Source of the DNA: Prevotella dentasini JCM 15908
GTDB taxonomy: Bacteria > Bacteroidota > Bacteroidia > Bacteroidales > Bacteroidaceae
Direction: 5' to 3'
Assembly (NCBI RefSeq): GCF_000614065.1
Contig: NZ_BAKG01000003.1
Coordinates: forward strand, 62,001-126,000
Length of the DNA: 64,000 nucleotides
Both the position numbers and the translations under genes were made by a program. This document shows positions 35,565 through 48,182 of the stretch, one piece after another. Every line of letters starts with the position of its first letter. Positions within the stretch are counted from its first letter, which is position 1. Below the pieces are notes generated by a model. It was not told where the DNA came from. It saw only the letters and a program-made list of their open reading frames with translations, and made no database searches.

Positions 35565-36305
35565 CTATTTCAGGAAACCCTGCCGTTTCAGTGCTTCAAG
35601 CAGCCCTTCAGATATCGCCTCGTTGTCTTTTTTAGTATATCGGAGGTCGGTGAAGACCTGCGCAAGCGTCTCCTTGTTGTTGATTTCCACAAAATGGCGG
35701 TTCTTCTCAAGCTGTTCCTTGGGCGAATAGTATTCGTCAATGAGCTGAGGCGTATAGTCCCGATAAGTCTCTTCGTGGACAATGCTTTCCAAGGGCAGCC
35801 GGTCGGTGAGTGCAGGCTGCTCGTCGGGCCATCCAAGGGTAATCGTCGCTACGGGCATGACGAGGCGTGGCAGGCGGAAAGCATCGATGAGAGCCTGCGG
35901 CTGATAGATGGTCGTTCCGAGGAAGCAAGTGCCGAGACCTTCCGCCTCGGCAAGATTGCAGAATGTCTGGCAGTAGAGCAAGGCATCGGTAGCCGCATTG
36001 AGAAACGACAGAAAGTTGTCGTAGCCCGGGGTTGCTTTCCGGTTCTCGGCCCAGACGGTGGTACGGCGGAAGTCGGCACAGAAGGTCAGCACGACGGGCG
36101 CGCCCGCAACCATGGGTTGGTTGAAGTGTGCCGGTGCTATTTTTCGTTTCATTTCCTTGTCGCGTGTAACGATGACGGAGTAGAGCTGTAGGTTGCCCAT
36201 GGTCGGGGTTCGCTCGGATTCGCTCAACAATCTCTTCAAGAGCGTGTTTGAAACTTCTTTCTCAGAGTACTTTCTGATGGTCCGTCGTGTATTGATAGTG
36301 TTCAT
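35565..36305 (-). CDS. nitroreductase family protein
   Basis: A 246-residue FMN-dependent oxidoreductase. The start MNTINTRRTIRKYSEKEV at 36305 is the usual nitroreductase N-terminus (TRRTIRKY binds FMN phosphate); longer frames upstream are shadows of nrdJ. Conserved parts are SERTPTMGNLQLYSVIVTRD, GAPVVLTFCADFRRTTVWAENR and AEAEGLGTCFLGT. The C-terminal 60 residues are a helical extension. Substrates cannot be told from sequence. It is divergent from nrdJ across 93 bases holding a long palindrome that covers both promoters. Confidence 0.88.
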   Translation of the reverse strand: MNTINTRRTIRKYSEKEVSNTLLKRLLSESERTPTMGNLQLYSVIVTRDKEMKRKIAPAHFNQPMVAGAPVVLTFCADFRRTTVWAENRKATPGYDNFLSFLNAATDALLYCQTFCNLAEAEGLGTCFLGTTIYQPQALIDAFRLPRLVMPVATITLGWPDEQPALTDRLPLESIVHEETYRDYTPQLIDEYYSPKEQLEKNRHFVEINNKETLAQVFTDLRYTKKDNEAISEGLLEALKRQGFLK

Positions 36306-36327
36306 TTTTAGAAATTTTATTGCTACA

Positions 36328-36371
36328 AAGTTACGTAATTGTTTCCGATTTCGGAAAACAATTCGTAACTT
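36328..36371. promoter_or_regulatory. palindrome covering the divergent nitroreductase/nrdJ promoters
   Basis: Left arm AAGTTACGTAATTGTTTCCG (36328-36347) and right arm CGGAAAACAATTCGTAACTT (36352-36371) are near-complete inverted repeats. Each arm contains a -7-like box: TAACTTTG on the minus strand (36333-36326) towards the nitroreductase gene, and TAACTTCG on the plus strand (36366-36373) towards nrdJ. A dimeric regulator bound here could close both promoters. The identity of the regulator is unknown. Confidence 0.6.
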
Positions 36372-36398
36372 CGCACTCACAAAAATTACTAAACGAAC

Positions 36399-38996
36399 AT
36401 GGAAGAAAGTCAGACTTTTTCGTCTGAAGAGGCCTACAGGGCGTCTTTGGAATACTTTGGCGGCGACGAATTGGCAGCCAGAGTTTGGGTCAATAAATAT
36501 GCAATGAAGGACAGCTTCGGCAATATCTACGAGCAATCGCCCGCAGATATGCACTGGCGCATTGCCAACGAGATAGCAAGGATAGAGCGTAAGTATCCCA
36601 ACCCGTTGAGTGCGCAGCAGGTGTTCGACCTTCTCGACCATTTCCGCTACGTTATTCCTGCAGGCAGTCCCATGACGGGAATCGGCAACAATCATCAGGT
36701 TGCGTCGCTGTCCAACTGCTTTGTCATCGGCTTGGACGGTGATGCCGACTCGTATGGTGCCATTATGCGCATCGACGAGGAGCAGGTTCAGCTGATGAAA
36801 CGGCGTGGCGGAGTAGGGCATGACCTCAGCCACATCCGTCCGAAAGGGTCGCCGGTCAACAACTCTGCACTCACCTCGACGGGGCTTGTGCCCTTTATGG
36901 AGCGTTACTCTAATAGTACGCGCGAGGTGGCACAGGACGGACGGCGGGGCGCGCTGATGCTCTCTGTCAGTATCAAACATCCCGATTCGGAGGCCTTTAT
37001 CGATGCAAAGATGGAGGAGGGAAAGGTTACCGGTGCCAACGTCTCGGTGAAGATAACCGACGAGTTTATGGAAGCAGCCATCGGCGACAAGCCCTATCGG
37101 CAGACCTTCCCGACCAACTCGGACAACCCCGAGTTCAGCAAGGAAATATCGGCAGCCAAGCTCTGGGAAAAGATTGTTCACAATGCGTGGAAGAGTGCAG
37201 AGCCGGGCGTGCTCTTCTGGGACACTATCATACGCGAGAGCATCCCCGACTGCTATGCCGACTTGGGATTCCAGACCGTCTCTACCAACTTGCGGTGAGA
37301 TACCGCTTTGCTCTTATGACAGCTGCCGCCTGCTTTCCGTCAACCTTTATTCGTATGTGGTCAATCCGTTTACGAAGGATGCCCGTTTCGATTTCGAAAA
37401 GTTCACACAGCATGTTGTCCTTGCGCAGAGGCTGATGGACGACATTGTCGACCTCGAAATGGAGAAGATAGACCTCATCATGGCTAAAATCAAGAGCGAC
37501 CCGCAGACTTCTGAGGTCAAGGATGCGGAATATCACCTTTGGGAAAAGATACGGCGCAAGAGCGGAATGGGACGCCGTACAGGAGTCGGCATCACTGCCG
37601 AGGGCGACATGATAGCCGCTATGGGACTCTGTTATGGAACACAGGAGGCAACCGACTTCTCGGTCAGCGTGCACAAGGCCTTGGCCCTCAATGCCTACCG
37701 TTCGTCGGTTACGATGGCGAAAGAGCGTGGGGCATTTGAGGTTTACGACGCAGAGCGCGAACAAAACAATCCGTTTGTCAACCGCATCAGGGAGGCCGAC
37801 CCTCAGCTCTATGAGGATATGGTGAGGTACGGACGCCGGAATATCGCCTGCCTGACAATAGCCCCGACGGGTACAACCTCGCTGATGACACAGACCACAT
37901 CGGGCATTGAGCCAGTATTCATGCCTGTCTACAAGCGTCGGCGCAAGGTGAATCCGAACGATAAGGACGTGCATGTGGACTTTGTCGACGAGGTGGGCGA
38001 TGCCTTTGAGGAGTATATTGTCTATCACCGCAAGTTCTTGGAGTGGATGAAGATTAACGGCATTGATACGACCAAGAAGTATTCGCAGGCGGAAATCGAC
38101 GATTTGGTCAAGCGTTCACCTTATTATAAAGCCACAGCCAACGACGTTGACTGGCTGATGAAGGTGCGCATGCAAGGAGCCATACAGAAATGGGTAGACC
38201 ATTCCATCTCCGTGACGGTCAATCTGCCGAACAATGTCGATGAGGCTTTGGTCAACAAACTCTATGTCGAGGCTTGGCGGAGTGGTTGCAAGGGCTGTAC
38301 CATCTATCGTGATGGCAGCCGTTCGGGTGTGATGATTTCGGTCTCGAAGAAAGATAAGAAGAAGGAAGGCAAGCAAGACGAGGAGAAGGAGAAAGACCTC
38401 TCTTCTGCCGAGGAGAAGCACGAGCACCTATGCTGCATACGCCTCACGTGGTGGAGGTGCGTCCGAAGGAACTTGACTGCGACGTGGTGCGTTTCCAGAA
38501 CAACAAGGACAAGTGGGTGGCGTTCGTCGGGCTGCTCGATGGCTATCCCTACGAGATATTTACGGGTCTTCAGGACGACGAGGAGGGCATTGCTCTTCCG
38601 AAGAGCGTTACGAAGGGAAAGATTATCAAGAACTCCAATCCCGACGGCTCCCACCGCTACGACTTCCAGTTCGAGAACAAGCGCGGATATAAAACCACCG
38701 TCGAAGGGTTGTCCGAGAAGTTCAATCCTGAGTATTGGAACTATGCAAAGCTCATTTCCGGAGTGCTGCGCTACCGTATGCCTATCGACCATGTCATTAA
38801 GCTCGTCGGTTCGCTGCAGCTGAAGACCGAGAGCATCAACACATGGAAGAATGGTGTAGAGCGTGCGCTGAAGAAGTATGTAACCGACGGCACGAAGGCA
38901 AGCGGGCAGACCTGTCCTGTCTGTGGGCAGGAGACGCTTGTCTATCAGGAGGGATGCCTTATCTGTACCAACTGCGGTGCATCGAGATGTGGATAG
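36399..38996 (+). CDS. nrdJ: adenosylcobalamin-dependent ribonucleotide reductase, class II (two frameshifts as sequenced)
   Basis: NrdJ reduces ribonucleotides to deoxyribonucleotides using coenzyme B12, independent of oxygen. Conserved pieces are RRGGVGHDLSHIRPKGSPVNN, STN(PCGEIPLCSYDSCRLLSVNL) with an active-site Cys, and APTGTTSLMTQTTSGIEPVF. Near the end there is a charged linker (DKKKEGKQDEEKEKD) and a C-terminal zinc-ribbon with two CxxC (CPVCG..CTNCG) that carries the redox cysteines. Breaks are at 37289 (AACTTGCGG, which needs AACCCTTGCGG) and at about 38428 (CACCTATG, probably one base lost). Restored length is about 866 residues. The start follows a purine stretch. Confidence 0.92.
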
Positions 38997-46838: not shown

Positions 46839-48182
46839 TTACTTTACTACGACGTTCTTTACTTCCCATGTTGGAGCGGCCTTGTCGGTGCTGGTATAGA
46901 GGAAGGCTATGTAGACGGCAGACTTGCCTGCGTAGGATGAAAGGTCGCAGGTGGCATCTACGAATTTCCAAGACTGCCCGTCAGGATAGGCCGAAATGGT
47001 GAGGTCTTTCCATGTCTTGCCGTCGGTAGAAACCTGTACCTTGCACTCGTCTGCCGCAGTTCCGAAGTATTTGCCGGTGTGCTGGAAAGAGAGGGTGGCG
47101 TTTTTCAGGCCTTCAAGGCTGAAGGCAGGGGAAACGAGACGGCTCTGTGCGGCATAGTTCTTCTTGTCTTTGTAGGCCGATGCCTTCATTTGGCTGTTGT
47201 CGGCATCGTGTTTCCATACGAAGGTGAGTTCTGCCGGAAGGGTAAGGTCTACGATGGTGAAGTTGCCCATGTCCTTGGCGAAAGTTACATTGAGACCTGT
47301 TGATGAGTGTTCGCCGCTTTCCGATAGGGCGACAATCTTGCTGCTCTTGTCCATTTCCATTATAGTCTCGCCGGCCTTGTTGGTATATGCCTTCAGGATT
47401 CCCTTGACAACGACGGTCTGGCCAGCCTTCAAGTCGTCCTTGGAAGCGAAGTCTGCCCCGTTAAGGCCTTTGCCGGAATAAATCTGGAGAGCTTTTTCCT
47501 TGCCGTCGTCAGAGATGTAATAGGTAATGCTCTTGTATTGTTCGTTGTAAGAAACAACCTCTGAGATGATACCCTTCACGTATGCTTCGCCTGAGAGGGC
47601 GTTGCCGCCGTTGTCCTTAATCTTCTGGATGGCGTCTGCAACCGTCCAAGCGGTAGCCTCGGTATTGAGGTCTGCTACAGGCTCTGAGCTGTCCTTGGCT
47701 CCGTTGAGGGAGTAAATGTAGTTGCCTTGGGTAAACTCCTTTGTACCGTTGAAGTTGACCAGTTTTCCGTAAACGACAACCTTGTCGCCTGCCTTGATTT
47801 GATTGGCAGAGGTGAAGTGCTTGTTTCCGAGAGCGTATCCGCGGTAAACGGTCAGCTGACCTGCTGCCTTGCCGTCGTCAGATATATAATAAGTGGCATT
47901 GCCGAAGCTGCCAGTATCAATTTCCTTGACGCTGACGATAGTGCCGGAAACGTAGACTTCCTTGTCGAGATTTTCGCCTGCTTCTATATATTTCATAGCA
48001 GCCGCAACGTTGAATGGGTCTGCCTCCGTTCCTGTTCCCTTAGGTTCTGCCGTCGAACCGGGTGTAGGCGTGCTGCCTTGCTCTTCAAAAGTCATGTCGT
48101 AAGGCATGGGTACATCTTCACAGCTTGTGAAACCGAAAGCTGCCGCGGCCAGTGCCATCATGGAAAAAAATATCTTTTTCAT
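46839..48182 (-). CDS. surface lipoprotein with two DUF6359-like OB domains and a C-terminal jelly-roll
   Basis: A 447-residue lipoprotein ([21 protein letters not shown], Cys21). Residues about 50-170 and about 175-285 are two related OB-type domains of the DUF6359 kind. The first has [29 protein letters not shown] and [17 protein letters not shown]. The second has [22 protein letters not shown] and [16 protein letters not shown]. The last 150 residues ([20 protein letters not shown] to [24 protein letters not shown]) look like a galactose-binding/choice-of-anchor beta sandwich. OB folds often bind nucleic acid or oligosaccharide. It follows the DUF5689 gene by 27 bases on the same strand. 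Confidence 0.85.

Follow-up and report, generated by a model that had tools for sequence, protein, structure and literature searches.

A conserved palindrome between divergent nitroreductase and nrdJ genes of Prevotella dentasini is a likely operator of ribonucleotide reductase genes

Introduction

NrdR, a protein with a zinc ribbon and an ATP-cone whose binding to DNA is set by ATP/dATP, has a DNA box that reads approximately ACACWATATATWGTGT. It is described as the ribonucleotide reductase (RNR) repressor of most bacteria in excerpts of PMC9110341, and excerpts of PMC12051234 give three helical turns between the centres of paired boxes as common and optimal, with four tolerated. The system described here resembles the NrdR regulon in two features: RNR genes of several classes are its targets, and palindromic boxes are, in relatives, paired at integral helical turns, four in this case, as in those excerpts of PMC12051234. 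It differs in its box, AAGTTTTCC-N5-GGAAAACTT, which is unlike that of NrdR, and in that no NrdR gene was found in the genus genomes searched.

Two other kinds of system are close. Shared operators of divergent gene pairs also consist of a single symmetric site between two promoters, but the motif here is common to further RNR promoters, with the other gene of the pair being mainly a neighbour, it appears. The promoters of Bacteroidota that are read by sigma-ABfr have the consensus -7 TAnnTTTG and -33 TTTG, according to excerpts of PMC7366714. The -7 boxes of this locus fit that consensus (nitroreductase) or nearly fit it (nrdJ) and their position is kept, whereas the promoter type has no inner palindrome and the -33 elements found here, TTTC, fit poorly. 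Among the literature titles and abstracts searched, none concerned an RNR operator of Bacteroidota. RegPrecise 3.0 holds 35 regulogs for the Bacteroidaceae according to excerpts of its description (PMC3840689), so an earlier prediction is possible.

Results and Discussion

The window is the whole stretch of DNA analysed, 64,000 nucleotides of the draft genome of Prevotella dentasini JCM 15908. Within it a nitroreductase-family gene (35565..36305, - strand; PF00881 over cut-off, no NCBIfam model over cut-off) is separated by 93 bp from nrdJ, which encodes a class II RNR (36399..38996, + strand). The nrdJ gene lies in three frames; the first two pieces match TIGR02504, each under the cut-off for the whole protein, and PF02867 is over cut-off. 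The nrdD gene of the same genome (G000:C18 near 9275) is likewise split, into two frames, and these splits are probably assembly indels of the draft genome.

A sequence-only reading had placed a long palindrome at 36328-36371, across the -7 boxes of both genes. It lies exactly there. The arms AAGTTACGTAATTGTTTCCG and CGGAAAACAATTCGTAACTT flank the loop ATTT, and 16 of the 20 arm positions pair without gaps, or about 19, judged by eye, if one T is shifted. When the 93-bp gap was shuffled 3,000 times with its dinucleotides preserved, pairing of at least 16/20 with a loop of 0-10 arose in 4 cases. Since 11 further places in the 64-kb window, merged by hand, satisfy the 16/20 criterion, the symmetry alone is unremarkable genome-wide, and the inverted repeat by itself would be thin evidence. 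An automated repeat search of the window, which used a seed rule, did not list this pair of arms. A terminator, an attenuator or the end of a mobile element would also place an inverted repeat within a short gap. Such a structural origin seems extremely improbable: the palindrome is upstream of both -7 boxes, and a 201-base match was found once in the genome, so that it is not a genome repeat. A link to phages was considered as well; the exact matches in four viral contigs all fall within predicted frames and were taken as chance.

The gap was compared with its orthologs, using 80 loci of named genomes as relatives for nrdJ and genomes of the same genus for the nitroreductase and the gap. Starts of a nitroreductase and of nrdJ face each other across 73 distinct gaps, although at two or more of these (L123, L168) the nrdJ side is only an NrdJ fragment. 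Fourteen are short (93-97 bp): those of the window, Prevotella jejuni DSM 26989 (L011), Prevotella sp. RUI040 (L010) and 11 genus genomes. The -7 box of the nitroreductase promoter is CAAAGTTA at 36326..36333, or TAACTTTG on the - strand, and is found at a fixed distance in all 14. That of nrdJ is TAACTTCG at 36366..36373 on the + strand, and it matches TAnnTTYG in all 14. The starts of CAAARWTA and TAnnTTYG are exactly 40 bp apart in every short gap (the window and 13 others). TAnnTTTGC was found in 57 of 80 nrdJ upstream regions, as against a mean of 1.7 and a maximum of 6 in shuffles. Both -7 boxes that the sequence-only reading had put in the arm ends are present, with the qualification that the nrdJ box is one base off TAnnTTTG, a single change that persists in relatives; the nitroreductase box fits TAnnTTTG. 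In one respect the view of the 44-bp palindrome has to be revised. The palindrome (36328..36371) is a composite in which an operator core is joined by portions of both -7 boxes. The symmetry of its ends arises from their both being -7 elements, and what is conserved is the stretch of 19-27 bp inside them. No conservation of the outer arms past the -7 boxes is visible by eye in the gap alignment.

Ungapped alignment with the 13 orthologous gaps delimits a 27-bp candidate operator, AATTGTTTCCGATTTCGGAAAACAATT, at 36337..36363. Its conserved core, GTTTCC-GATTTCG-GAAAAC (36341..36359), differs at one of 12 positions from GTTTTC-N7-GAAAAC, which lies between the -7 boxes exactly in 9 of the 14 short gaps and with one mismatch in the other 5, the window included. 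GTTTYC-N7-GAAAAC is retained at fixed spacing in all 14. This conservation in related species and the inner palindrome between both -7 boxes support the proposal of one symmetric site common to the two divergent promoters. Of the 18 gaps of 107-220 bp, 11 show the palindrome, as judged by eye, at a distance of 5-7 bp on the upstream side of the nitroreductase -7 box.

The symmetry might come from nothing but two sigma-ABfr promoters set back to back, their -33 elements interleaved, without any regulator. The conserved -7 boxes at fixed spacing lend this reading some weight, as does a TTTC seen by eye 20 bp upstream of each of them (36342-36345 and, mirroring it, 36354-36357), where TTTG would be the -33 element. 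We regard it as unlikely. The palindrome also occurs, paired at 43 bp, upstream of nrdD, a gene that lacks such a divergent partner in the loci read, and in long gaps the palindrome is near one promoter only.

Occurrence upstream of further RNR genes

When 20 genomes were searched with the pattern, pairs of palindromes with starts 42-43 bp apart emerged, and the gene behind them is nrdD, which encodes the anaerobic class III RNR (TIGR02827 is over cut-off in both proteins tested). When nrdD upstream regions were pulled by protein similarity alone, 24 of 27 distinct ones had a site with at most 2 mismatches in the 12 core positions. The training set of a 27-bp matrix consisted of 33 nrdD upstream regions, six of them retrieved with the pattern. 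Applied to the nitroreductase-nrdJ gaps of up to 430 bp (61 of the 73), which were outside the training set, it was significant in 48 of 61 (p≤0.02, 100 shuffles each) and without significance in 13. By class, significance at p≤0.02 was reached in 12/14 short, 15/18 middle and 21/29 long gaps. At a threshold of at least 15 bits, the loci L009-L088 gave 43 matches in 30.9 kb of DNA upstream of nrdJ versus 1 in the other 496 kb, and that lone match is 435 bp before nrdJ in L012.

The window site itself scores 8.0 bits with this matrix (p=0.02 in its own gap) and ranks third in the window behind matches at 47758 and 17172. It is degenerate and one of the weaker sites; it was assigned by alignment and fixed spacing, not by score.

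A second type of nrdD, in which the own genome's nrdD is included, has a site at p≤0.01 in 8 of 11 relatives and also in the own genome. Upstream of nrdA (class I RNR), a site is found at p≤0.02 in 4 of 9 regions, and 5 of 9 have no significant site. Membership of nrdA and of the second type of nrdD was decided from the similarity of the N-terminus and from length, and one member of each was checked with an HMM. Where nrdJ has no nitroreductase nearby, 14 of 31 upstream regions have a significant site and 17 do not; where a nitroreductase has no full nrdJ alongside, it is 3 of 14, and 5 of these 14 face an NrdJ fragment. Judged from these sequences, the motif tracks RNR genes (nrdJ, nrdD and sometimes nrdA) more than the nitroreductase. 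The difference between the two groups suggests that the nitroreductase is probably co-regulated mainly by virtue of its neighbourhood. That the enzyme has a role in cobalamin or redox chemistry for the class II RNR is a guess.

Genome-wide distribution

A final model, R1, built on sequence alone from 79 sites, was applied to 28 genomes with 150 candidates scored per genome; strands were merged, tallies were made by hand, and the listing of sites reaches to about E=0.33. Genes were assigned to sites by coordinates and fetched regions, and the gene in G147 was called nrdD from its length. At E≤0.003 there are 40 unique sites, 39 of them before RNR genes, which are the targets that characterise the NrdR regulon. 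Twenty-three are before nrdD, 14 before nrdJ (with or without a nitroreductase), 2 before nrdA and 1 at an NrdJ fragment; this last, the fortieth best site (G205), is between a nitroreductase and a gene with the C-terminal part of NrdJ only. Nine genomes that contributed no row to R1 hold fifteen of these sites, each of them at an RNR gene, although some of the genus genomes in the run are possibly close to named genomes used in the model.

At E≤0.05 the count rises to 61 unique sites, of which 52 are at RNR genes or an NrdJ fragment and nine are elsewhere. The nine include one in the own genome between pyrB and a gene resembling those of penicillin-binding proteins, one in a methylase-like frame, again of the own genome, whose matched sites are also listed for G010 and G173, three in predicted frames (G086, G000:C38 and G010), one where a porin-like gene begins (G134) and one upstream of a lipoprotein-like gene (G065). 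Three of the nine belong to the own genome, in which R1 found no RNR site at E≤0.05; its best site adjoins pyrB, and the window's own site is not listed at E≤1. The pyrB site (G000:C33:39000-39022; L170, L274) is strong and stands alone, with 26.3 bits and E 0.003, and no RNR gene was seen in its 3-kb locus.

The search of the own genome for the palindrome, which the sequence-only reading had recommended, was of limited help as a count of raw patterns: with 3 mismatches and the correct spacing there were 20 places versus 13 in the control, and in many genomes the counts were hardly above control. They are near control because each genome has few sites, which we read as specificity. Initial scans, with six bases separating the arms GTTTTCC and GGAAAAC, gave 17 places versus 12 in the control in the own genome, with little enrichment, and the orthologue alignment corrected the spacer to five.

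The DnaA box is TTWTNCACA. The half-site TTTTCCAAA is similar to it, and DnaA, a nucleoid protein or another DNA-binding factor of general function could act here in place of a regulator dedicated to RNR. We consider this quite improbable, given that 52 of the 61 sites at E≤0.05 (28 genomes, hand tally) are at RNR genes or the NrdJ fragment and that the symmetric half, by eye, does not fit the DnaA box.

Paired copies four helical turns apart

In nrdD upstream regions 23 of 27 site pairs are spaced by 43 bp, which is about four helical turns. In nitroreductase-nrdJ gaps 11 of 39 pairs have this spacing, and the runner-up spacing has 3. The nrdJ upstream regions of L009-L088 (e.g. L047) show 18 pairs at 43 bp, 6 at 65 bp (about six turns) and 5 at 44 bp. 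In the window a vestigial second copy of the operator is found 43 bp to the left, over the start codon of the nitroreductase gene (36294..36320, -2.6 bits). Across the 14 short gaps, only the main site has a higher mean score than offset -43, which reaches -5.4 where the offsets average -38.6 (sd 9.7), and the copy is strong in L024 (14.4 bits), L032 (23.0) and L039 (18.2). Pairing of boxes at integral helical turns is clear in relatives and vestigial in the window. Compared with the spacing given in excerpts of PMC12051234, the 43-bp pairs make the architecture NrdR-like, but the box and the protein are not those of NrdR.

NrdR and the search for a regulator

The motif differs from the NrdR box in sequence, and NrdR (TIGR00244) is over cut-off in none of 24 genus genomes, the own genome (86% complete) included, as against 9 of 14 controls. 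These results bear out the earlier suggestion of a regulator other than NrdR. Among 40 relatives overall NrdR is over cut-off in one, G023, of the same order; it is clear there (L204), at 170.9 bits. Five of the 28 R1 genomes were covered by the NrdR search and 16 of 28 by a search for ATP-cones. A diverged NrdR would account for RNR targets and for boxes paired at integral turns, as excerpts of PMC12051234 report for NrdR. It is already disfavoured, and we consider it very unlikely: besides the contrast between genus genomes and controls, in which the own genome counts as only 86% complete, no small ATP-cone protein was found in the 16 genomes (all ATP-cones are in RNR-sized frames, except in the split own nrdD), and matches to the NrdR box ACACNATATATNGTGT at ≤3 mismatches number 3 in the window, where 1.6 are expected, with none in the gap.

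A gene for the regulator was not recognised adjoining nrdD or nrdA in the frames of the six neighbourhoods read, nor by eye within the long nitroreductase-nrdJ gaps. Autoregulation would predict a site before the regulator's own gene, but among 20 fetched regions none had a site before a gene recognised as a regulator.

Proposed mechanism

We consider it likely that the inner palindrome is the operator of an NrdR-like RNR regulon, serves the promoters of nrdJ and of the divergent nitroreductase gene alike, and is bound by a protein that is not NrdR. Given its position within the two promoters, repression of both is the most likely effect. The protein, probably a dimer, would bind GTTTTC-N7-GAAAAC between the -7 boxes and keep RNA polymerase off both promoters. 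In many relatives a second dimer would bind 43 bp away, four turns along on the same face of the helix, and cooperativity between the two is probable. Loss of binding, in response to a signal that is plausibly the dNTP state, would open nrdJ and the nitroreductase gene together. The same operator, usually doubled, also stands before nrdD and some nrdA genes, and therefore would mark an RNR-centred regulon that does the job done elsewhere by NrdR.

A broader proposal has about an even chance of being correct, namely that in Bacteroidales an unrelated regulator dedicated to RNR has taken the place of NrdR. It would read pairs of AAGTTTTCC-N5-GGAAAACTT four turns apart and control the RNR genes of classes II and III and some of those of class I. 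If true, this would be a convergent solution by a new protein family. The genus genomes searched are without NrdR, yet many share a conserved operator that is found almost only at RNR genes. Control of the dNTP supply in these bacteria thereby becomes directly testable, and a dominant gut group may have a new regulator.

NrdJ C-terminal fragments

Eight genus genomes have a nitroreductase gene opposed by an intact frame of 158-239 amino acids that keeps the C-terminal domain of NrdJ (L122:1600-2205 (+), L123:521-1237 (-), L147, L157, L164, L165, L168 and L169). The fragments are about 80-91% identical over 131-132 amino acids, have at most a remnant of the N-terminus and lack the catalytic barrel; in the two scanned, Pfam TSCPD gave a weak match below cut-off. 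In the boldest version of the broader proposal this domain, alone opposite the nitroreductase in eight genomes, would be involved in the regulation; a fold search that considered it as a DNA binder gave no support for this. The C-terminal piece of the window NrdJ has a predicted structure with mean pLDDT 85.6. The model gave no Foldseek match at E≤0.001, a PDB sequence search with the domain gave no match, and VIA-align scored best with PmrD (Z 3.7) and then Pur-alpha (3.5). The operator is weak or absent at four of the fragment loci and clear at the other four (22.1, 23.0, 30.4 and 18.8 bits).
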